From the IMG/VR virus record IMGVR_UViG_3300034105_003429, positions 1 through 47,993 of that record: 47,993 nucleotides of DNA; one strand, 5' to 3'. The stretch comes from a virus. Position numbers and translations under genes: made by a program. How positions within the stretch are numbered: position 1 is the stretch's first letter; every line of letters starts with the position of its first letter. Under the pieces are notes generated by a model. That model made no database searches. It was not told the DNA's origin and saw only the letters and a list, made by a program, of their open reading frames with translations. Below, piece after piece: positions 1,363 through 45,275 of the stretch.

Positions 1363-1408
1363 TTAACACTCCAGATTTTACGGTCTGGGGTTTTTTGTTT
1401 ATATTTAC
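1363..1408 (+). promoter_or_regulatory. Early-type phage promoter P1
   Basis: TTAACAC (1363-1369), six bases, TTTTAC (1376-1381), 18 bases, then TATATTTAC (1400-1408). The next start codon is 21 bases downstream. The -7 box resembles the Bacteroidota TAnnTTTG consensus. The same arrangement recurs 11 more times in the window. Confidence 0.8.
1368..1396 (+). terminator. Intrinsic terminator overlapping a promoter
   Basis: An 8-bp stem (1368-1375 with 1384-1391, one G-U pair) closes an 8-base loop TTTTACGG and is followed by a T run. It ends the phosphoesterase transcript. The loop is also the upstream box of the next promoter. Confidence 0.8.
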
Positions 1409-5619: not shown

Positions 5620-5642
5620 TTAAAAGATACATTTAATACAGG

Positions 5643-5669
5643 AGAGGAGCAATATTGCTCCTCTTTTTT
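5643..5669 (+). terminator. Strong intrinsic terminator
   Basis: A perfect 11-bp inverted repeat (5643-5653 with 5654-5664) with no extra loop bases is followed by a T-rich run. It closes the structural-type cassette and has a different stem from the terminator/promoter hybrids. Confidence 0.85.
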
Positions 5670-5690
5670 GTTAATAACTTTAACAAAATT

Positions 5691-5736
5691 TTAACACTTA
5701 AAGTTTTACCGATTCAAAACTATTGATTATATTTAC
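5691..5736 (+). promoter_or_regulatory. Early-type phage promoter P2
   Basis: TTAACAC (5691-5697), six bases, TTTTAC (5704-5709), 18 bases, TATATTTAC (5728-5736); ATG 24 bases downstream. The upstream box is not in a hairpin here because a separate terminator precedes it. Confidence 0.8.
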
Positions 5737-6739: not shown

Positions 6740-7585
6740 ATGAGATTAAAATCAATTGTAGTAATTTTAGCAGTAGTAGTAGGTATTTTCGCAATGTTTA
6801 GTTCATGCGAAGTAATTGATGCAGGACATGTAGGAGTAAAGGTTAACATGTATGGCTCAGGTAAAGGGGTCAATAATGTAACAGCATGCACAGGATGGGT
6901 ATTTTTTAATCCTGTTACAACAAAGATTTATGAGTTTCCAACATTTATTCAACATAAAGAATATAAGAACTCAGAGGAAGGAGACAATTCATTTACTGTA
7001 AATACAAAAGATGGTTCGGAGTTCCGAGTTGCACCTATATTAAATTACTCAGTGAGTGCAGACAAAGCACCTTCAATATTTGCCAAATATCGTAGAACCT
7101 TACCAGAATTGGAGGAAGGTTTCTTAAAGACGGCAATATATGACGCATTCCGACTTGCAACTAATAAATATTCAGCAGAACAATTAATATCAAATAGAGC
7201 CCTTTTCGAAGTTGAAGTAAGAAGGTTATTAGAAGCGCAGATTGTTAAAGAAGGATTTATAGTTAATCAATTTACATCTAACTTAGAATATCCTACATCA
7301 TTTAAGAATGCCATTAATGCGAAGAACAATGCAGTTCAGGCAGCCCTAACCGCAGAGAATCAAGTACAAACTGCGACAGCTCAAGCTAAAATTAAAGTAG
7401 CAAAAGCACAAGGAGACGCTGAAGCCCTGTTAACAAACGCAAGAGCAGAAGCAGAGTCTAATAAATTAAGACAATCGACCTTGACTCCGATGTTATTACA
7501 ACAACAGTGGATAGAGAGATGGGATGGAGCACTTCCTACCACTCAATTGGCAAGTGGAGCTAATACTATGTACGGTTTAAAATAA
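6740..7585 (+). CDS. SPFH/band-7 (prohibitin-like) membrane protein, possible lipoprotein
   Basis: The 281-residue protein has an N-terminal hydrophobic segment (residues 5-20) ending FSSCE, which could be a lipobox or the end of a TM anchor. An SPFH domain follows with the characteristic DAGHVGVKVN start and a tail of Ala/Gln/Glu-rich coiled coil (NAVQAAL, AQAKIKVAKAQGDAEA). SPFH proteins oligomerise into membrane-bound rings or microdomains and often control proteases. A phage copy may reshape or protect the host envelope; this role is inferred. It closes the P2 cassette before a terminator/promoter hybrid. Confidence 0.85.
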   Translation: MRLKSIVVILAVVVGIFAMFSSCEVIDAGHVGVKVNMYGSGKGVNNVTACTGWVFFNPVTTKIYEFPTFIQHKEYKNSEEGDNSFTVNTKDGSEFRVAPILNYSVSADKAPSIFAKYRRTLPELEEGFLKTAIYDAFRLATNKYSAEQLISNRALFEVEVRRLLEAQIVKEGFIVNQFTSNLEYPTSFKNAINAKNNAVQAALTAENQVQTATAQAKIKVAKAQGDAEALLTNARAEAESNKLRQSTLTPMLLQQQWIERWDGALPTTQLASGANTMYGLK

Positions 7586-7610
7586 ACTTTAACAAAACAT
7601 TAACAAAACA

Positions 7611-7656
7611 TTAACACTCCAGATTTTACCGTCTGGAGTTTTTTGATTATATTTAC
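7611..7656 (+). promoter_or_regulatory. Early-type phage promoter P3
   Basis: TTAACAC (7611-7617), TTTTAC (7624-7629) in the hairpin loop, 18 bases, TATATTTAC (7648-7656); ATG 26 bases downstream. A short tandem of AACAAAACATT lies just upstream. Confidence 0.8.
7616..7645 (+). terminator. Intrinsic terminator overlapping promoter P3
   Basis: A perfect 8-bp stem ACTCCAGA/TCTGGAGT (7616-7623, 7632-7639) with loop TTTTACCG and a T run. It ends the SPFH transcript and is embedded in the next promoter. Confidence 0.85.
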
Positions 7657-7682
7657 ATATCTAAATTTAACAAAGAAACATT

Positions 7683-8021
7683 ATGAGAAATTCAATTTTA
7701 ACAATTCAAATTTTAGTAGTAGCAATTATTATCGTGGCCATTGGTTTTGGAATCACTGGATATGCTAACGTAAACACAGTTACCGCAAAGGTAGAAGGTA
7801 AGGAGAGAATTACCGAACAAAACGGAAAAACAATCGACTCTTATTATTTAGTGTACACTGACAAAGGTACATTAAAATTAGAAGATGACCTTTTCCGCGG
7901 TAATTTTTATTCAAGCGACGAGTATGGTAAACTGAGACAAGATTCTACGTACACCTTTAAAACATCAGGTTACCGTATCGGTTTTTTGAGTTCATACCCT
8001 AACATTATAGAAGTAAAGTAA
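7683..8021 (+). CDS. Membrane-anchored protein resembling DUF1523
   Basis: The 112-residue protein has an N-terminal TM segment (residues 6-26) and a periplasmic beta domain with the pattern YLVYTDKGTLKLEDDL...SSDEYG...SYPNIIEVK. That pattern of a strand, a small SSD.YG motif and a closing YPNII strand is what I associate with DUF1523-like phage proteins. Function unknown. It leads a run of small early genes behind P3, with TAATG overlap to the next gene. Confidence 0.7.
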   Translation: MRNSILTIQILVVAIIIVAIGFGITGYANVNTVTAKVEGKERITEQNGKTIDSYYLVYTDKGTLKLEDDLFRGNFYSSDEYGKLRQDSTYTFKTSGYRIGFLSSYPNIIEVK

Positions 8022-8266
8022 TGTTAAGCGCCGCAAAATACGTAATTGTTGATGGATGTGCCATCATATTCTCAGCAGCTATCCAACATAAAGATATGGT
8101 TGGACACAACGAAATAGCAACTGGAGCCGGATTTGTCAGATTTATCTTTGATGAAAAAGATGATCAGATTAAAGCAATGGCTTATGGAAAATCAATATCA
8201 TTAGGAATCGGGTCGCAAGAAAGAGACACACATATACTAACAACACAAATAACTAATACCTATTAA
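8021..8266 (+). CDS. Hypothetical protein
   Basis: An 81-residue protein starting with a TAATG overlap after the DUF1523-like gene. It has alternating strands (KYVIVDGCAIIF, GAGFVRFIFD) like a compact beta/alpha domain. No motif recognised. Translational coupling to its neighbour supports it as real. Confidence 0.65.
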   Translation: MLSAAKYVIVDGCAIIFSAAIQHKDMVGHNEIATGAGFVRFIFDEKDDQIKAMAYGKSISLGIGSQERDTHILTTQITNTY

Positions 8267-8267
8267 G

Positions 8268-8678
8268 ATGCAAAAACATTATTTTGAATTAGACAAAGTA
8301 GAATCAATTACTTTAACACTAGAAAGAGAAACGGCTTACCGATGGTATCCAGAGATTCCTGCAACACCTAAGATGTTCTTAGGAATTCCAATTGGTACTA
8401 ATAAGGCAATTCCAGCAGGTTGGAACGAATACAAAGATTGTGCAGGAAATGAAAAATGGCAGTGGGATAGAACTAAAACATCATATTTTGAAGGTTATTC
8501 ATCATATCGAATTGATGAAACCAACAAAAGGATTTACAATAAATCTCATGTTGAAATCCGACTAGGTTACAAACAATCTTTTGGAAAAACATTCGACTCG
8601 AATAATGAGGCTCAAACTTATGTAGATGACTTAATCCTAAGTTCAGACAAAAACTTTCACGTAATCATTAACAAATAA
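8268..8678 (+). CDS. Hypothetical protein
   Basis: A 136-residue soluble protein with many aromatic residues and no signal or membrane helix. A Pro/Ile-rich stretch (IPATPKMFLGIPIG) lies near residue 30. It follows the previous stop by 1 bp. Function not recognised. Confidence 0.65.
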   Translation: MQKHYFELDKVESITLTLERETAYRWYPEIPATPKMFLGIPIGTNKAIPAGWNEYKDCAGNEKWQWDRTKTSYFEGYSSYRIDETNKRIYNKSHVEIRLGYKQSFGKTFDSNNEAQTYVDDLILSSDKNFHVIINK

Positions 8679-8682
8679 AACT

Positions 8683-9117
8683 ATGAGCGCAAACGAAACA
8701 CTTAAGCAAGGATTAGAATACATGAAGAGTCCTGAAGGACAAAAAAGTATGGAAGACTATTTTAATAAACTTGCCCAACGGGACGCTATCGAACAGGAAA
8801 GAGCCCAGAAACTATTAGAAATGTATGGTGTTTGCGACGATTCCACCTTTGACTATTTAATGCTGGACATTTTAGTGAAGCAGGAGAAATATGACAAGAG
8901 ACACTACTCAACATACGCTGAAAGACCCTTACACCTTATGAATTTAATGTGGGAAATTGCATCAAAGGAAGGTGTTGAAATCGACCCAATCGATGGTCTA
9001 ACCGAGAACTTCTCTTCAATGGTTTATGACTATTATGGGTACCAATTTGCAATCACACACGGACAGGGTTCAGTGCTGAGCGTTTATCGTCAAAATGAAT
9101 TAAGATACCGTAGCTAA
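8683..9117 (+). CDS. Hypothetical protein, helical
   Basis: A 144-residue, charged, mostly helical protein with no membrane segment. The first 50 residues look coiled (KSMEDYFNKLAQRDAIEQE). It sits in the early P3 cassette, 4 bp after its neighbour. No family recognised. Confidence 0.65.
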   Translation: MSANETLKQGLEYMKSPEGQKSMEDYFNKLAQRDAIEQERAQKLLEMYGVCDDSTFDYLMLDILVKQEKYDKRHYSTYAERPLHLMNLMWEIASKEGVEIDPIDGLTENFSSMVYDYYGYQFAITHGQGSVLSVYRQNELRYRS

Positions 9118-9118
9118 T

Positions 9119-9259
9119 ATGAAACACCTATCAATTGCACTAATTTACATAGCATTCTTTGGATTAATCGGTGGTGCATGCTATCTTACCCAATCAGCAA
9201 CCCCTTTATGGGCCTTATTATTAACTCCAACGTATAAAACTAAAAGCGATGAAGATTAA
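9119..9259 (+). CDS. Small single-pass membrane protein
   Basis: A 46-residue frame starting 1 bp after the previous stop and overlapping the next gene by 11 bp. Residues 4-22 form one hydrophobic helix (IALIYIAFFGLIGG) followed by a second weakly hydrophobic stretch and a charged tail KTKSDED. Tight packing and clear membrane character support a real gene. Function unknown. Confidence 0.6.
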   Translation: MKHLSIALIYIAFFGLIGGACYLTQSATPLWALLLTPTYKTKSDED

Positions 9260-9617
9260 AGAACTATTAAACCATGAGGTTGACCTAAAAACCTTCTTTT
9301 TAACCGGACCTCTTGGAGCGATTTTCAACATGTTTAGCCGCAAGGTTGTCAAAGAGTCTAAAAATACAAATATCGTATATGATATTCGGCATGGCAAACC
9401 AGTTGTTATCCAATCCGAGAAATACATGAATCAATATGACAAAACGTATGGAGCTGGAGAGGCAATGAGACCTGGATTTGCACTAGATTCTGTGAAGTAT
9501 GGAATTAAACGTGAGATTTGCGACCAAATTATGAAAGGAGACCTATTTGAATGGGCTATTGATGAAACTGTAACAGGCACCCGAGTTGCTGCCAGAATAA
9601 TTGTTAATAAGTTTTAA
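9249..9617 (+). CDS. Hypothetical protein
   Basis: A 122-residue basic protein, last in the P3 cassette. A moderately hydrophobic stretch occurs early (TFFLTGPLGAIFNMF) but is too polar for a confident TM helix. No known motif. It overlaps the preceding small membrane-protein gene by 11 bp, which suggests coupled translation. Confidence 0.6.
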   Translation: MKIKELLNHEVDLKTFFLTGPLGAIFNMFSRKVVKESKNTNIVYDIRHGKPVVIQSEKYMNQYDKTYGAGEAMRPGFALDSVKYGIKREICDQIMKGDLFEWAIDETVTGTRVAARIIVNKF

Positions 9618-9634
9618 AAATAAAGTGTTAAAAG

Positions 9635-9667
9635 TTTTACCGATTAAAAACTTTTGTTTATATTTAC
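9635..9667 (+). promoter_or_regulatory. Early-type phage promoter P4
   Basis: TTTTAC (9635-9640), 18 bases, TATATTTAC (9659-9667); ATG at 9692. The TTAACAC box and hairpin are absent. It drives the Prs-like gene and the NAD/ADP-ribose module. Confidence 0.75.
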
Positions 9668-9691
9668 ATATAATTAAAAACAACATATCAG

Positions 9692-10567
9692 ATGATACAG
9701 AAATTAAACTTGGTAAATGCGGAGAATTCAGACATTAAGTACAAAATCTCAAAATACCCAGACGGCCAACAATCAATCTCAATAGACCTTCCAGACACCG
9801 ACTTTCATGAAAAAATCACAGTAAGTATTACAAGTCGATTAAATTCGTTCAGGGACTTAGAGGTTATTATTGCAGCTAATCAGGCACTTAGAGAATTCTC
9901 ATACGTTGAGAACGTTAAGTTAAATGTTCCGTATTTCTTAGGAGCCCGTTCAGACCGTAAATTTGAGGCTGGAACAAGTAACTATCTTAAAACAGTTATT
10001 TGCCCAATTATAAACTCTCAGAATTTCTCAAGAGTAACTGTACTGGACCCACACTCTGATGTATTAGAAGCCTGTTTAAATAATTATCATAAACACGACA
10101 ATCACCGTTTAGTCAAAGATGCATTATCAAAGATTGATAATCGTGACGGAGCCCAAGACAGAATTTGCTTAGTCAGTCCGGATGCCGGAGCCTACAAAAA
10201 AATCTTTGATGTTGCTAAAAAGTTCAACATCGAAAATATCATTACGGCAACTAAAGTCCGAGATATTAGAAGCGGAAACATTATCCGAACAGAGATTCCT
10301 ACCTTAAATCAACACGACGACCTTAAATATGTTATCATCGATGATATTTGTGATGGTGGCCGAACCTTTATTGAATTAGCAAAAGCAATTAAAGGAAGTC
10401 GACCAACTGCTAAAGTTTATCTAGTAGTAACTCATGGTATTTTTAGCGCCGGATTCGAGCAATTAAATCAATACTTTGAAGGTATCTATACAACAAATAG
10501 TTACCGAGATGTAGCAGACAATGAATACGAACAAAAAACAAACACAACCTCATTTAATATATTTTAA
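9692..10567 (+). CDS. prs: Ribose-phosphate pyrophosphokinase family (Prs-like; possible ADP-ribose pyrophosphate synthetase)
   Basis: The 291-residue protein matches the Prs family in length and order. An ATP/ribose-phosphate loop YFLGARSDRKFE lies at about residues 80-91, a DPHSD block near 120, a catalytic-loop equivalent (KVRD) near 187, and the PRPP-binding motif VIIDDICDGGRTF at about 211-223. The canonical motif is VDDmidTGGT, so GGRT is divergent. Prs makes PRPP from ribose-5-phosphate and ATP. Divergent phage relatives (Adps of the NARP1 pathway) instead pyrophosphorylate ADP-ribose, and sequence reading alone cannot decide between them. First gene after P4, and a NAMPT-family gene lies 1.9 kb downstream. 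Confidence 0.85.
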   Translation: MIQKLNLVNAENSDIKYKISKYPDGQQSISIDLPDTDFHEKITVSITSRLNSFRDLEVIIAANQALREFSYVENVKLNVPYFLGARSDRKFEAGTSNYLKTVICPIINSQNFSRVTVLDPHSDVLEACLNNYHKHDNHRLVKDALSKIDNRDGAQDRICLVSPDAGAYKKIFDVAKKFNIENIITATKVRDIRSGNIIRTEIPTLNQHDDLKYVIIDDICDGGRTFIELAKAIKGSRPTAKVYLVVTHGIFSAGFEQLNQYFEGIYTTNSYRDVADNEYEQKTNTTSFNIF

Positions 10568-11897: not shown

Positions 11898-12088
11898 GAA
11901 ATTATAAAGTAATACACAAGCACGATGGTAATACTACCATACAAAAAATTGAATGCCGAGAAATGACAATTGAACATAGTTCTTATTGCTTTTGGACTGG
12001 AGATTATGGAGCAACCAATAGGCTTGCATGGGCATTTCCAATTATGTTTACAATTGTAGAAGGTTTACCAGACCCTGAAGAAATTTAA
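11894..12088 (+). CDS. Small hypothetical protein
   Basis: A 64-residue protein with ATGA overlap to the macro-domain gene. It has alternating strands and one FWTGDYG aromatic patch, and no recognised motif. Last gene before promoter P5. Confidence 0.6.
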   Translation: MRNYKVIHKHDGNTTIQKIECREMTIEHSSYCFWTGDYGATNRLAWAFPIMFTIVEGLPDPEEI

Positions 12089-12095
12089 CATAATT

Positions 12096-12141
12096 TTAAC
12101 ACTCCCAATTTTCCGGAATCATACTTATTGATTATATTTAC
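12096..12141 (+). promoter_or_regulatory. Early-type phage promoter P5
   Basis: TTAACAC (12096-12102), TTTTCC (12109-12114), 18 bases, TATATTTAC (12133-12141); ATG 23 bases downstream. No hairpin: the upstream box is TTTTCCGG. It drives the NAMPT-family gene. Confidence 0.8.
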
Positions 12142-14895: not shown

Positions 14896-15363
14896 ATGCA
14901 AGTAATTAAACCAAATAGCAGGTACCAAAACCAAGAAAATAAATGTTCAGTATTTTTAGCCGGTTCTATAGAAATGGGAAAGGCAGAAGATTGGCAAAAG
15001 AGAATCGAGAACAATTACATTAATACCAATGTAACACTTTACAATCCAAGACGTGATGATTGGGATGCTAGCTGGACTCAAGAACAATCAAATCCTCAAT
15101 TTAACCAACAAGTAAACTGGGAAATGAATAGTCTTGAAAATGCAGATATAATCTTCATGTACTTCTCTCCAGAAACTAAGAGTCCAATTAGTCTCCTAGA
15201 ATTAGGTTTACATGTCAGAGATAATATTATCGTATGTTGTCCTAAAGGGTTTTGGCGAAAAGGAAATGTCGACATTGTATGTACTCGATATAACATTCCA
15301 ATCTTTGAAAATCTAGACGATGCAATTGGCGCACTAACCACAAAGATTAATCAAAAACTTTAA
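14896..15363 (+). CDS. Nucleoside 2-deoxyribosyltransferase-like protein
   Basis: The 155-residue protein has VFLAGSIEMG near residue 19, NPRRDDWDASW near 52, a QQVNWEM helix near 73 and the SPISLLELGLHV block near 96, followed by a CCPKGFWRKGNVD loop. These are signatures of the N-deoxyribosyltransferase-like fold (LAGS nucleotide site and catalytic Glu in LLELG). Members cleave or exchange bases on (deoxy)nucleosides or nucleotides. It ends the NAD/nucleotide cassette, just before a terminator/promoter hybrid, so a role in nucleotide salvage or in clearing a nucleotide signal is plausible. Confidence 0.8.
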   Translation: MQVIKPNSRYQNQENKCSVFLAGSIEMGKAEDWQKRIENNYINTNVTLYNPRRDDWDASWTQEQSNPQFNQQVNWEMNSLENADIIFMYFSPETKSPISLLELGLHVRDNIIVCCPKGFWRKGNVDIVCTRYNIPIFENLDDAIGALTTKINQKL

Positions 15364-15370
15364 CATAATT

Positions 15371-15416
15371 TTAACACTCCAGATTTTACAGTCTGGAGTT
15401 TTTTGTTTATATTTAC
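15371..15416 (+). promoter_or_regulatory. Early-type phage promoter P6
   Basis: TTAACAC (15371-15377), TTTTAC (15384-15389) in the hairpin loop, 18 bases, TATATTTAC (15408-15416); ATG at 15441. Confidence 0.8.
15376..15405 (+). terminator. Intrinsic terminator overlapping promoter P6
   Basis: A perfect 8-bp stem ACTCCAGA/TCTGGAGT (15376-15383, 15392-15399) with loop TTTTACAG and a T run. Same stem as at 7616 and 22694. Confidence 0.85.
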
Positions 15417-18939: not shown

Positions 18940-19529
18940 TGATTAAAACACCTAAAGTATTAGTTGCTCCGCCATATGGAGAACTTGAAAAGCAGATGTA
19001 CCGCGAATGGTTAATTGAAAATGGGTACAAACCATATTTCTTAGGAACCGAATGTAAAAACATCGATGCTCCACTAATACTTTGCGGAGGTGGAGATATT
19101 GGTAAAAGTCCAAAAAGAGATGCTAGAGAAACTAGTTGGATTACTAGTGCTCTTGAAAATGGACAACCAATAATTGGAATCTGTAGAGGAATGCAACTCT
19201 TAAACCACTACTTTGGCGGAGAGGTTGAAAATATACCCGAGCATCTTACTGAAAACCATCTCAATGATGTATTTGACGATGATGAAGACCATTCATTCAG
19301 ACTATCCGAGTTTCATCAAGTCTATGATATTGATGGAGATTCAAAGACCGTTAATTCACGACACCATCAATACTGTAGTATAGTTGCAAGGAACTTTGAG
19401 ATTACTCACAGGGCTACTGATGGTACTGTTGAAGGATTTCAAGACTTAGAGAAGAGGATTTGGGCAGTTCAATGGCACCCTGAACGGGACGAATGCGAGA
19501 ACAATGAATATCCACTCAATAAACTTTAA
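18939..19529 (+). CDS. Class I glutamine amidotransferase-like hydrolase (peptidase C26 type)
   Basis: The 196-residue protein has LCGGGDIG near residue 50, GICRGMQLLNHYFGG near 80-94 with the Cys nucleophile, SRHHQY near 139-144 and the catalytic VQWHPER near 176-182. This Cys-His-Glu layout matches stand-alone gamma-glutamyl hydrolase/PuuD-like amidotransferases, which cleave gamma-glutamyl bonds. The substrate is unknown; glutamylated polyamines, folates or a modified nucleotide are possible. It ends the cassette at promoter P7 with no hairpin terminator. Confidence 0.8.
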   Translation: MIKTPKVLVAPPYGELEKQMYREWLIENGYKPYFLGTECKNIDAPLILCGGGDIGKSPKRDARETSWITSALENGQPIIGICRGMQLLNHYFGGEVENIPEHLTENHLNDVFDDDEDHSFRLSEFHQVYDIDGDSKTVNSRHHQYCSIVARNFEITHRATDGTVEGFQDLEKRIWAVQWHPERDECENNEYPLNKL

Positions 19530-19536
19530 CATAATT

Positions 19537-19582
19537 TTAACACTTAGGATTTTCCGGAATCATACATATTGATTATATTTAC
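19537..19582 (+). promoter_or_regulatory. Early-type phage promoter P7
   Basis: TTAACAC (19537-19543), TTTTCC (19550-19555), 18 bases, TATATTTAC (19574-19582). The ATG is 35 bases downstream, a longer leader than the other copies. Confidence 0.8.
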
Positions 19583-22672: not shown

Positions 22673-22688
22673 AAACTTTAACATAATT

Positions 22689-22734
22689 TTAACACTCCAG
22701 ATTTTACGGTCTGGAGTTTTTTGATTATATTTAC
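22689..22734 (+). promoter_or_regulatory. Early-type phage promoter P8
   Basis: TTAACAC (22689-22695), TTTTAC (22702-22707) in the loop, 18 bases, TATATTTAC (22726-22734); ATG 24 bases downstream. The leader (ATCTAATTAAAACAAAGAAA) is identical to those of P9 and P10. Confidence 0.8.
22694..22722 (+). terminator. Intrinsic terminator overlapping promoter P8
   Basis: A perfect 8-bp stem ACTCCAGA/TCTGGAGT (22694-22701, 22710-22717), loop TTTTACGG, T run. Confidence 0.85.
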
Positions 22735-23311: not shown

Positions 23312-23752
23312 ATGACACGAATCAACGCACATATCCGACCGATAAAATTATGCGACCAGCATCTTGTTGCAGAGTATCGAGAAATTTTAAGGACTAATGC
23401 ACTTGCAATCAAAAGAGCCAGAAAGGAGGGAAAGTCGATGTTAGGTAACATTCAACAATCCTTTACACTCGGCAGTGGACACGTTACATTCTTTTATGAC
23501 AAATTGTTGTATATCCATCTCAGGTTTAATGCTCTTAGAAGTGAACTGATTAATCGAGGAATGAATGCCACAATTGAATGGCAGTTAGATGAGATAGAGG
23601 AGTTCAAATGGTTATACAATGACTGGCTGGAAGACCCAGAGGCTGATCAATTGATTGTTGCACGAATCCTGGAAAGGGCCCGAACTATGAAAAAGATTTC
23701 GCATACTTCTAAGAATATTGACTACGAAACATATTGTGAAATTTTAACATAA
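23312..23752 (+). CDS. denV: Pyrimidine-dimer DNA glycosylase (T4 endonuclease V-like)
   Basis: The 146-residue protein starts MTRIN, as T4 DenV does, so Thr2 would be the N-terminal catalytic amine after Met removal. It continues DQHLVAEYREI (DenV DQHLMAEYREL, with the catalytic Glu at residue 24 here after a one-residue insertion) and SGHVTFFYDKLLY, near identical to the T4 core. It should cleave the glycosyl bond at UV-induced cyclobutane pyrimidine dimers and nick the abasic site. Third gene of the P8 cassette. Confidence 0.92.
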   Translation: MTRINAHIRPIKLCDQHLVAEYREILRTNALAIKRARKEGKSMLGNIQQSFTLGSGHVTFFYDKLLYIHLRFNALRSELINRGMNATIEWQLDEIEEFKWLYNDWLEDPEADQLIVARILERARTMKKISHTSKNIDYETYCEILT

Positions 23753-23754
23753 AT

Positions 23755-23800
23755 TTAACACAAAATAGTTTCCAGAATCAAAACTATTGATTATATTTAC
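23755..23800 (+). promoter_or_regulatory. Early-type phage promoter P9
   Basis: TTAACAC (23755-23761), GTTTCC (23768-23773), 18 bases, TATATTTAC (23792-23800); ATG at 23825. No hairpin. Confidence 0.8.
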
Positions 23801-25533: not shown

Positions 25534-25635
25534 AGTCAGGTAGTGGAATTGGTATACACATGATAGTGAACACTTGGAGGATTTATCAACTCATGTAAGT
25601 AAGTAACACTGCAGGTTCGAATCCTGTCCTGACCA
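25534..25635 (+). tRNA. tRNA-like element C, Leu-type with an 18-base anticodon loop
   Basis: The acceptor (25534-25540 with 25628-25634, first pair mismatched) and T arm (25611-25627) are clear, and the D arm GTG...CAC (25543-25559) is like that of bacterial tRNA-Leu. A perfect 5-bp anticodon stem TGATA/TATCA (25561-25565, 25584-25588) encloses an 18-base loop rather than 7. The discriminator is A, as for Leu. Removing 11 bases gives no obvious Leu anticodon, so splicing to a normal tRNA is not supported. Total 102 nt. Confidence 0.4.
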
Positions 25636-26044: not shown

Positions 26045-26090
26045 TTAACACTCTAGATTTTCCCTATTCAAATATATTGATTATATTTAC
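26045..26090 (+). promoter_or_regulatory. Early-type phage promoter P10
   Basis: TTAACAC (26045-26051), TTTTCC (26058-26063), 18 bases, TATATTTAC (26082-26090); DNA ligase ATG 24 bases downstream. Confidence 0.8.
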
Positions 26091-29352: not shown

Positions 29353-29629
29353 CAATCTTAAAACCAGTTCGCGTTGAGGTATCAAGTAGTGGCGTGCGGT
29401 AGCGATGAAACAGTCGTTGAGTCTTTCAGAACAAGACATAAAAGAATTCGAAACCTTGGAATGCGCAATAATTATTCCGCGTTCCTAAAGCTACCACTGA
29501 AGGTGATGTTGGTGACCTTCTAAAAACAAAGTGTCTTGGTACGCTCTGCTGTTGTGGCAACGACAAGGTCTCGGTAGGCAGAAGGCCTCTGACCTACTAA
29601 AACTAAAGGGACCTATCGGTCCCTTTTTT
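29353..29629 (+). ncRNA. Candidate structured non-coding RNA downstream of tRNA-Leu
   Basis: About 275 bases without a protein frame contain several strong hairpins. GGTAGC (29397-29402 region) pairs with GCTACC far downstream with AGTGG/CCACT support. GGAATGCG pairs with CGCGTTCC (8 bp), GAAGGT with ACCTTC, GTTG with CAAC, and GTAGGCAGA with TCTGaCCTAC. The segment ends in a strong terminator. It may be a discrete RNA or the processed 3' part of the tRNA transcript. No tmRNA tag or RNase P signature was found. Family not recognised. Confidence 0.55.
29605..29629 (+). terminator. Strong intrinsic terminator
   Basis: A perfect 9-bp stem AAAGGGACC/GGTCCCTTT (29605-29613, 29618-29626) with tetraloop TATC and a T run. 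It ends the tRNA/ncRNA transcript. Confidence 0.9.
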
Positions 29630-35728: not shown

Positions 35729-35754
35729 GAATCAGACCGGATTAGATTTTTAGG

Positions 35755-35782
35755 AGACCTTAAGTAATTAAGGTCTTTTTTG
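35755..35782 (+). terminator. Intrinsic terminator
   Basis: A perfect 9-bp stem AGACCTTAA/TTAAGGTCT (35755-35763, 35768-35776) with tetraloop GTAA and a T run. Confidence 0.85.
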
Positions 35783-37551: not shown

Positions 37552-38112
37552 ATGATAATATTATATTTAAAAGAATCACCATTAGGTTTAAAATATCTAG
37601 GAAAATGTGTAAATACCGATCCTTATAAATATAAGGGAAGTGGCACCGTATGGAAAAGACATTTAAAAACACATAACATATCATCTAATGATATAAAAAC
37701 AACAATTTTATTTGAAACTGAAGATAAAGAAAAATTAATACAAATGGGTTTGTATTATTCAAAATTATGGGATGTTGTTAATAGTAAAGAATTTGCAAAT
37801 TTAATACCTGAGCAAGGAGATGGAGGTAATACTGGAGGTTTTAAAAAAGGTGTTATATTTACAGACGAGCACAGAAAAAAATTAAGTATTGCTAGAAGTA
37901 AACAAAAAGATTCACCTGAAAGAATTAAAAAAAGAAGTGAATCAACTTCAAAAACTAAAAAAGGAAAACCTTTAAGTAATACACATATAGAGTCACTAAA
38001 AAAACCAAAAAATAAAGAAAAAAACTGTGCTACATGTAGTATATGTGGAAAATTTACAACAAAAACCGTTATTAGTAGAGACCATGGAAAAAATAAATGC
38101 GATAAAAAATAA
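37552..38112 (+). CDS. GIY-YIG-type homing endonuclease (SegD-like)
   Basis: The 186-residue protein begins with LYLKESPLGLKYLGKCVN (GIY-YIG-like module with YLG), has a YKGSG block near residue 28 and a C-terminal zinc-binding-like tail CATCSICGKF...HGKNKC. Numerous Lys/Ser-rich linkers (SKQKDSPERIKKRSES) match modular homing proteins. Its last 29 bases overlap the start of thyA in another frame, so it appears fused to a replacement thyA 5' end. Confidence 0.8.
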   Translation: MIILYLKESPLGLKYLGKCVNTDPYKYKGSGTVWKRHLKTHNISSNDIKTTILFETEDKEKLIQMGLYYSKLWDVVNSKEFANLIPEQGDGGNTGGFKKGVIFTDEHRKKLSIARSKQKDSPERIKKRSESTSKTKKGKPLSNTHIESLKKPKNKEKNCATCSICGKFTTKTVISRDHGKNKCDKK

Positions 38113-39301
38113 TACTTTAGACAAGCAATACACCAACCTGCTCCAAGACATATTAGACAATGGAGTAGTTAAAGGTGACAGGACAGGTACAGGAACGGTC
38201 TCAGTTTTTGGACGCCAAATAAGACACAAAATGTCCGAAGGGTTTCCACTACTTACAACTAAAAAGATGCCATTCAAAACAATCGTAACAGAACTTCTTT
38301 GGTTCTTACGAGGTGATACAAATATTAAGTATTTGGTTGATAATAATTGCCATATTTGGGATGGAGACTGTTATAAGAGATATTCAATTACAATGGGAAT
38401 GACTGGTCAGGTAGAATCATTAACGCAAGAAGAGTTCATCAACAAAATTAAAACAGATAATGAGTTTGGAAAGATGTGGGGTGAGTTGGGGCCTATTTAT
38501 GGTAAGCAATGGAGAAAATGGGATGTAAAACCTACCATGAACTCAGAAACAGGTGAAATCTTTATTGGGAACGTATGGGTAGACCAAATCCAAAATCTAA
38601 TCAACGATCTTAAAACAAATCCAGACTCAAGACGATTAATGGTCAATGCTTGGAATGTTGGAGAATTAGACCAAATGGTTCTTCCACCTTGTCATTATGG
38701 AATTCAAGTTTATACAAGAGAGTTGAGTGAAGGTGAAAGAGAAGATTTATATTGGAAAAGATATGGTTATGATTCAGTAAATATGGAAGGTAATGATTTA
38801 ACTGGAATCCCAACCAGAGCAATCTCCCTAATGTGGAATCAACGTTCAGTAGATACGTTCTTAGGTTTACCATTCAACATTACAAGTTATGGACTCCTAT
38901 TAGAAATCTTGGCAAAAGAGGTCAATATGGTTCCTGATCAGTTAATTGGAAATCTTGGCGATGTTCACCTTTATTCAAATCATATTGAACAAGCAAAGAA
39001 ACAAATAGGAAGAGAATTAAAATTCCCAGAAAGGGCAGAAATGCTAAAAGACAAAATGGGTGAGGAACAATACAATAAAGCAGTTGATGAATTAATGCCA
39101 TTTGGTGGGGGTATGAGTGAGTATTTTGAAACTTATAACATTCCATACAGTACTAGTGAACCTTTTCCATTACCGACGTTAAAAATAAACCCAAACAATA
39201 AAATGAGAATAGGTGGCGGAATATTTACATATGATAGAGGTGATTTTACTGTTGAGAACTATCAATCACACGCAGAAATTAAAGCACCACTAAGTAACTA
39301 G
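38084..39301 (+). CDS. thyA: Thymidylate synthase (ThyA)
   Basis: The start at 38084 is chosen because the family N-terminus (KQYTNLLQDILDNGVVKGDRTGTGT) begins just after it; upstream in-frame codons to 38027 lie in the homing gene. The ~405-residue product shows GDRTGTGT near residue 26, the LLWFLRGDTN block near 70, LPPCHYG with the nucleophilic Cys near 201, FLGLPFNITSYG near 258, GNLGDVHLYSNH near 285 and NYQSHAEIKAPLSN at the end. It methylates dUMP to dTMP with methylene-tetrahydrofolate. It is longer than bacterial ThyA (about 264), with insertions in the middle and near the C-terminus, as in several phages. Confidence 0.9.
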   Translation: MEKINAIKNNTLDKQYTNLLQDILDNGVVKGDRTGTGTVSVFGRQIRHKMSEGFPLLTTKKMPFKTIVTELLWFLRGDTNIKYLVDNNCHIWDGDCYKRYSITMGMTGQVESLTQEEFINKIKTDNEFGKMWGELGPIYGKQWRKWDVKPTMNSETGEIFIGNVWVDQIQNLINDLKTNPDSRRLMVNAWNVGELDQMVLPPCHYGIQVYTRELSEGEREDLYWKRYGYDSVNMEGNDLTGIPTRAISLMWNQRSVDTFLGLPFNITSYGLLLEILAKEVNMVPDQLIGNLGDVHLYSNHIEQAKKQIGRELKFPERAEMLKDKMGEEQYNKAVDELMPFGGGMSEYFETYNIPYSTSEPFPLPTLKINPNNKMRIGGGIFTYDRGDFTVENYQSHAEIKAPLSN

Positions 39302-43723: not shown

Positions 43724-43751
43724 AAAGCGTATCTTATGGTACGCTTTTTTT
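43724..43751 (+). terminator. Intrinsic terminator
   Basis: An 8-bp stem AAAGCGTA/TACGCTTT (43724-43731, 43740-43747) with an 8-base loop and a T run. Confidence 0.8.
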
Positions 43752-43773: not shown

Positions 43774-43806
43774 TTTTACCGTGTCAGGTTTTTTGTTTAT
43801 ATTTAC
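43774..43806 (+). promoter_or_regulatory. Early-type phage promoter P11
   Basis: TTTTAC (43774-43779), 18 bases, TATATTTAC (43798-43806); ATG 23 bases downstream. Only the 3' half (TGTCAGG) of the P12 stem is present, so no hairpin forms. Confidence 0.75.
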
Positions 43807-45233: not shown

Positions 45234-45264
45234 AACCTGACATTTTACCGTGTCAGGTTTTTTG
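45234..45264 (+). terminator. Intrinsic terminator overlapping promoter P12
   Basis: A 9-bp stem AACCTGACA/TGTCAGGTT (45234-45242, 45251-45259) with loop TTTTACCG and a T run. The stem differs from the other copies but the loop is the same promoter box. Confidence 0.85.
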
Positions 45265-45275
45265 TTTATATTTAC
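45243..45275 (+). promoter_or_regulatory. Early-type phage promoter P12
   Basis: TTTTAC (45243-45248) in the loop of the terminator, 18 bases, TATATTTAC (45267-45275); ATG at 45293, 17 bases downstream, the shortest leader. Confidence 0.8.

Follow-up and report, generated by a model that had tools for sequence, protein, structure and literature searches.

We identified, in a 48-kb virus record, a set of fused units that probably place a predicted intrinsic terminator and a Bacteroidota-type -33/-7 promoter in the same ~33 bp. The record, probably a fragment, was analyzed over its full 47,993 nucleotides (here, the window). In each unit, two hairpin arms surround an 8-nt promoter box and are followed by TTTTTTG, 2 nt, and TATATTTAC. 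We propose that at the RNA level the arms and TTTTTTG would end the upstream operon, and that in duplex DNA the loop would serve as the -33 box, the right arm and T-run would occupy the 16-nt spacer, and TATATTTAC would act as the -7 element of the promoter for the following operon. Judging from the Bacteroidota -33/-7 register, RNA would be released ~12 to 13 nt before the next start site; the upstream transcript would then never enter the next leader, and the two operons would therefore be insulated in minimal space. The repeated unit also marks cassette boundaries and could offer a homology patch for cassette gain or loss. Composite structure, register, covariation, gene context, and spread are all evident at the level of sequence, and we infer that both terminator and promoter are active in vivo.

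Promoter family and fused units in the window

The window carries 12 promoter units, all on the plus strand and all with a gap of exactly 16 nt between the box and TATATTTAC (Table 1). The pair TTTTACNG...TATATTTAC occurs 8 times against 0.01 expected, with the same 16-nt gap every time when 5 to 30 nt were permitted, and a weight matrix scan of the window returned 12 sites scoring at least 33.8, the next best scoring 3.6. The hairpin is absent from 7 of the 12, while in the other 5 the box lies in a hairpin loop and TTTTTTG follows. The first-pass annotation had placed such hairpins at 1368, 7616, 15376, 22694, and 45234, and all five lie at exactly these positions, with arms ACTCCAGA/TCTGGAGT (TCTGGGGT at 1368) or AACCTGACA/TGTCAGGTT and with precisely TTTTAC(C/G/A)G as the 8 nt between them. 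Its description of the box as the whole loop holds for these 8 inter-arm nucleotides but not for the predicted fold, in which RNAfold pairs one or two more positions within the box and leaves a loop of just 4 to 6 nt; similarly, TTTTTTG does precede TATATTTAC, but 2 nt intervene where the T-run had been said to end immediately before it. Predicted RNA energies of the five hairpins range from -11.7 to -13.0 kcal/mol (z of -4.1 to -6.2 against shuffles). As in an intrinsic (Rho-independent) terminator, a stable, G+C-containing hairpin leads directly into the T-tract; the loop of such a terminator is free sequence, whereas that of a fused unit is the box of the next promoter.

Table 1. Fused units, other promoters of the family, and associated elements in the window
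Feature	Position	Strand	Box	Components and remarks
Fused unit 1	1368-1408	+	TTTTACGG	left arm 1368-1375; box/loop 1376-1383; right arm 1384-1391; T-run to 1397; -7 element 1400-1408
Fused unit 2 (site first flagged)	7616-7656	+	TTTTACCG	left arm 7616-7623; box/loop 7624-7631; right arm 7632-7639; T-run 7639-7644; -7 element 7648-7656; boundary of a cassette carried by relative G003
Fused unit 3	15376-15416	+	TTTTACAG	left arm 15376-15383; box/loop 15384-15391; right arm 15392-15399; -7 element 15408-15416
Fused unit 4	22694-22734	+	TTTTACGG	left arm 22694-22701; box/loop 22702-22709; right arm 22710-22717; -7 element 22726-22734
Fused unit 5 (other stem)	45234-45275	+	TTTTACCG	left arm 45234-45242; box/loop 45243-45250; right arm 45251-45259; -7 element 45267-45275
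Half unit	43774-43806	+		promoter with right arm and T-run (TGTCAGGTTTTTTG), without left arm
Separate terminator at the boundary of promoter 43774	43724-43747	+		-12.1 kcal/mol; TTTTATTA tail
Separate terminator upstream of promoter 5704	5642-5665	+		-15.6 kcal/mol
Family promoter without hairpin	5704-5736	+		
Family promoter without hairpin	9635-9667	+		
Family promoter without hairpin	12109-12141	+	TTTTCCGG	
Family promoter without hairpin	19550-19582	+	TTTTCCGG	
Family promoter without hairpin	23768-23800	+	GTTTCCAG	
Family promoter without hairpin	26058-26090	+	TTTTCCCT	
TTTAACA-N4-TTTAACA repeats	5679-5696, 12084-12101, 15359-15376, 19525-19542, 22677-22694, 23743-23760			

Several other features of the window were observed alongside the promoter family. 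A spaced TTTAACA-N4-TTTAACA repeat, with a period of one helical turn, stands directly 5' of six promoter boxes, occurs at no other position in the window, and is a possible UP-like element or activator site. Strong free-standing terminators at 29606-29625 and 35754-35777 have no family promoter behind them, and the operons that follow may be started by another promoter class. The window also holds a tRNA-like element at 25534-25635, recognized by Rfam (36.3 bits) and not called by ARAGORN, and a thymidylate synthase open reading frame of 424 aa at 38027-39301 that matches a 335-position profile in two stretches, possibly reflecting an inserted segment.

A DNA search of phage records with window positions 7000 to 9700 gave no match. 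The nearest relatives of the window are IMG/VR records of 200 to 236 kb, and one record, G003, is ~90 to 98% identical to it across most of its length. The Gp23 capsid protein (PF07068) was found in G001, G003, G006, G007, G008, G010, G016 to G018, and W01 to W04, and was not found in the window fragment itself. Box variants among the relatives are TTTTACCG, TTTTCCGG, GTTTCCGG, CTTTCGGG, and TTTTTTTA, in all of which TTT is invariant.

Covariation and register of the shared bases

From the window and 12 relatives we drew 139 non-redundant intergenic units, of which 39 are fused and 100 carry the family promoter without the hairpin. When units were split by the T-run alone and only then scored for all seven stem pairs, all seven were present in 39 of 59 units with a T-run and in 0 of 80 without one (p = 6e-20), and the register of the hairpin on the promoter was constant across fused units. 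Covariation was assessed in 34 distinct T-run units, unpaired ones included, in a gap-free alignment: 82.7% of cells pair compared with 63.1% after shuffling, and the covariation score is 0.465, a value reached by none of 500 shuffles, compared with 0.206 for shuffled data. Sliding the partner arm by 1 to 3 nt lowers the score to at most 0.141. There are about ten arm sequences (among them CTCCAGA/TCTGGAG, CCTGACA/TGTCAGG, CCCGACA/TGTCGGG, ACCCAGA/TCTGGGT, CTCGGCA/TGTCGAG, and TCTGAGA/TCTCAGA), with pairing maintained by compensatory change. Because shuffling ignores relatedness, most weight rests on the slide control and on the count of distinct arms; the unit counts are likewise not independent events, since units are linked by descent and by copying and some of the 17 records scanned below are near-duplicates. 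The box is constrained as well, with TTT in the central 8 nt of 23 of 23 fused units and of 22 of 152 free-standing terminators from the same phages (p = 1e-16), and the -7 element lies a median of 23 to 24 nt from the ATG in fused and non-fused units alike. Selection-free repetition of one sequence is ruled out by the fact that both arms change in register. The earlier proposal that terminator and promoter share about 30 bases (~33 bp here) thus draws strong support from covariation, from the co-occurrence of hairpin and T-run, and from recurrence in unrelated phages.

Distribution among phages and bacterial genomes

In an unbiased scan, all predicted terminators (n = 791) of 17 phage records were taken and the position of the next TAnnTTT[AG] was recorded. 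The -7 element peaks 5 to 7 nt after the start of the T-tract, with 93 hits against ~3 per offset elsewhere. At that offset TATATTT[AG] is enriched 112-fold in the window clade and 56-fold in G016 to G018, TAnnTTTG is enriched 7.7-fold in Tenacibaculum phages, and enrichment is weak, 2.6- to 4.4-fold, in MA9V phages. Interleaving with unrelated stems was found in cultured phages, namely Tenacibaculum pT24 and PTm1, Chryseobacterium MA9V-1 and MA9V-2, and Flavobacterium FCL-2, a 47-kb phage with the same layout; the units of PTm1 and MA9V-2 display the layout directly, and in pT24 most loops contain TTT(T)G 23 to 25 nt before TAnnTTTG. Because the stems in the cultured phages are unrelated to those of the window, the geometry has recurred, probably independently. 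The five sites of the first-pass annotation are instances of an architecture found in several groups of Bacteroidota phages.

The layout does not appear to be general in host chromosomes: in small samples (Chryseobacterium, 400 kb; Bacteroides and Lacihabitans, 200 kb apiece) the 5- to 7-nt excess is near background. When genome contigs were searched for a T-run plus TATnTTTGC, 17 of the 118 sites had a hairpin, several of them, though not all, in Bacteroidota; cellular contigs L436, L395, L471, L452, and L482 have terminator-like hairpins directly before the motif. Sporadic cases may thus exist in bacterial genomes or prophages. In phage RB49 (locus L533, ~3191-3162, minus strand) a sigma-70 -10 element, TATAAT, sits inside a terminator-like hairpin loop; interleaving is therefore also seen, as an isolated case, beyond the Bacteroidota phages.

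Gene context

A co-directional gene lies upstream in 39 of 39 fused units, and in none of the 39 does a second terminator separate that gene from the box. The 100 non-fused units comprise 15 in divergent context, 13 with a separate terminator 40 to 100 nt upstream, and 72 in tandem with no terminator detected, which are presumably internal promoters; among tandem units with a terminator, 39 of 52 are fused. Fused and non-fused contexts differ with Fisher p values of 0.011 and 0.009, which ignore relatedness. The insulation of cassettes envisaged in the first-pass annotation fits this context, and on sequence grounds a fused unit likely insulates neighboring operons. Insulation is evidently not needed everywhere, given the 72 tandem promoters without a detected terminator, and read-through may be substantial because the hairpins are of moderate strength (-12 to -13 kcal/mol).

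Comparison with known promoters and composite motifs

Housekeeping promoters of Bacteroidota consist of a -33 TTTG and a -7 TAnnTTTG. The fused units resemble them in having two elements ~19 to 20 nt apart and a short leader before the ATG, and the units of pT24 match closely, with the TTTG of the loop corresponding to the classical -33 element. The window clade departs from the textbook form by a final G-to-A change in both elements (TTTTAC/TTTA; TATATTTAC, TATATTTA) with spacing unchanged, possibly a version read by a phage sigma factor. Many relatives encode a protein with sigma-70 region 2. In G003, a sigma-70-like factor gene of 204 aa (90759-90950, minus strand, locus L370) starts 26 nt behind a promoter of the same family as that of the window, an arrangement that suggests self-reinforcing expression or a phage-sigma regulon.

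Arbiol et al. in 2010 and Comeau et al. in 2014 reportedly treated PeSLs as composite motifs of T4-like phages. One account (PMC4503421) describes these promoter-early stem-loops as composite promoter-terminator motifs that are reported to mediate gene shuffling. Like PeSLs, fused units combine a terminator stem-loop with a promoter in one short, repeated element that separates co-directional genes, they belong to phages with a gp23-type capsid, and they may likewise be tied to cassette gain and loss. The promoter type appears to differ, resembling Bacteroidota -33/-7 in fused units, whereas PeSLs carry a strong early promoter of the Escherichia coli sigma-70 type, and the order of elements differs as well. 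In the 50 kb of RB49 that we scanned, a stem and T-run are followed by a -35 TTGACA 10 to 15 nt past the stem, so that the promoter is adjacent to and after the stem, whereas the loop of a fused unit holds the -33 box, positioned 16 nt ahead of the end of the stem, and the T-run falls within the promoter spacer; the two signals are interleaved rather than placed one downstream of the other. The t97/p98 pair of Kayvirus vB_SauM-515A1, in which a promoter immediately follows a terminator (PMC7698491), is likewise described as adjacency, whereas fused units share bases. The literature searched, of which coverage was partial, yielded no account of such interleaving, and our best reading is that this geometry is a new form of the composite terminator-promoter cassettes known as PeSLs.

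Alternative explanations

Interleaving might be selected for operon coupling rather than compactness, with a terminated polymerase staying over the next promoter and reinitiating there; we regard such a functional hand-off as conceivable but rather doubtful. Single-molecule work found that E. coli polymerase, once it has terminated, often remains on the DNA, diffuses, and starts again from promoters close by (Kang et al. 2020, PMC6978380), and the release point in a fused unit would lie inside the next promoter. The local recycling of RNA polymerase raised in the first-pass annotation is by this analogy physically plausible. However, the sequence does not distinguish a hand-off from compactness or insulation, and the 13 separate terminators farther upstream would also lie within diffusion range. 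If a hand-off did operate, Bacteroidota phages might, we suggest tentatively, have repeatedly evolved a relay-like joint in which termination takes place exactly on the following promoter and the polymerase starts again from there, coupling neighboring operons. Such a joint would perhaps be enabled by a -33 element of 4 bases, which a hairpin loop can hold, and by a spacer of ~19 nt with room for one stem arm plus a U-tract. Another possibility, which we consider unlikely, is that the unit is a recombination module first, a recurring patch of homology by which cassettes are spread and shuffled, with the overlap mostly carried along by copying. Two stem families do predominate, the gene shuffling reported for T4-like PeSLs (PMC4503421) is in keeping with such a role, and at site 7624, where the window has a single unit with stem CTCCAGA, G003 carries a further cassette of ~1.1 kb between two units that differ from each other (unit A with stem CCTGACA, unit B with no hairpin); the window aligns to the left flank in G003 up to 7689 and to the right flank from 7592. 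Copying alone is nevertheless insufficient because the geometry is kept while stems differ wholly among phage groups, and just 4 of 11 window/G003 breakpoints are no farther than 80 nt from a unit (random mean 1.4, P = 0.044), an excess that is suggestive only.

Phage N4 virion RNA polymerase uses hairpin promoters, and fused units likewise carry a promoter signal on a hairpin loop, with the box exactly within it. A DNA cruciform or single strand that displays the box for recognition by a polymerase or sigma factor in the manner of N4 is nonetheless very improbable, and we rejected it: unlike in N4, most promoters of the family (100 of 139) have no hairpin, half-hairpins exist, and the hairpin is restricted to units with a T-run, a feature for which a hairpin promoter in DNA would have no use. 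No T7/N4-type polymerase domain (PF00940) was matched, although control genomes likewise gave no match. The idea that hairpin extrusion tunes the promoter accordingly went unsupported, and such control is unlikely because most family promoters are conserved without hairpins. We give equally little credence to the view that the hairpin merely protects the 3' end of the upstream mRNA or that the overlap arose by chance. Intrinsic terminator hairpins do also protect 3' ends, but pure protection would require neither a T-run nor a fixed register on the promoter, and chance overlap of terminator and promoter is ruled out by the counts, the covariation, and the unbiased offset scan.

Implications

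A composite terminator-promoter cassette thus remains our preferred reading of the fused units, in which a terminator is fully interleaved with the promoter that follows it, an arrangement maintained by compensatory change and recurring in unrelated phages. Operon boundaries of this kind would be missed by prediction tools for promoters and terminators when each masks the hits of the other. The units are a candidate compact insulating part for engineering in Bacteroidota, and they provide a natural test bed for asking whether a terminated polymerase reinitiates in place.
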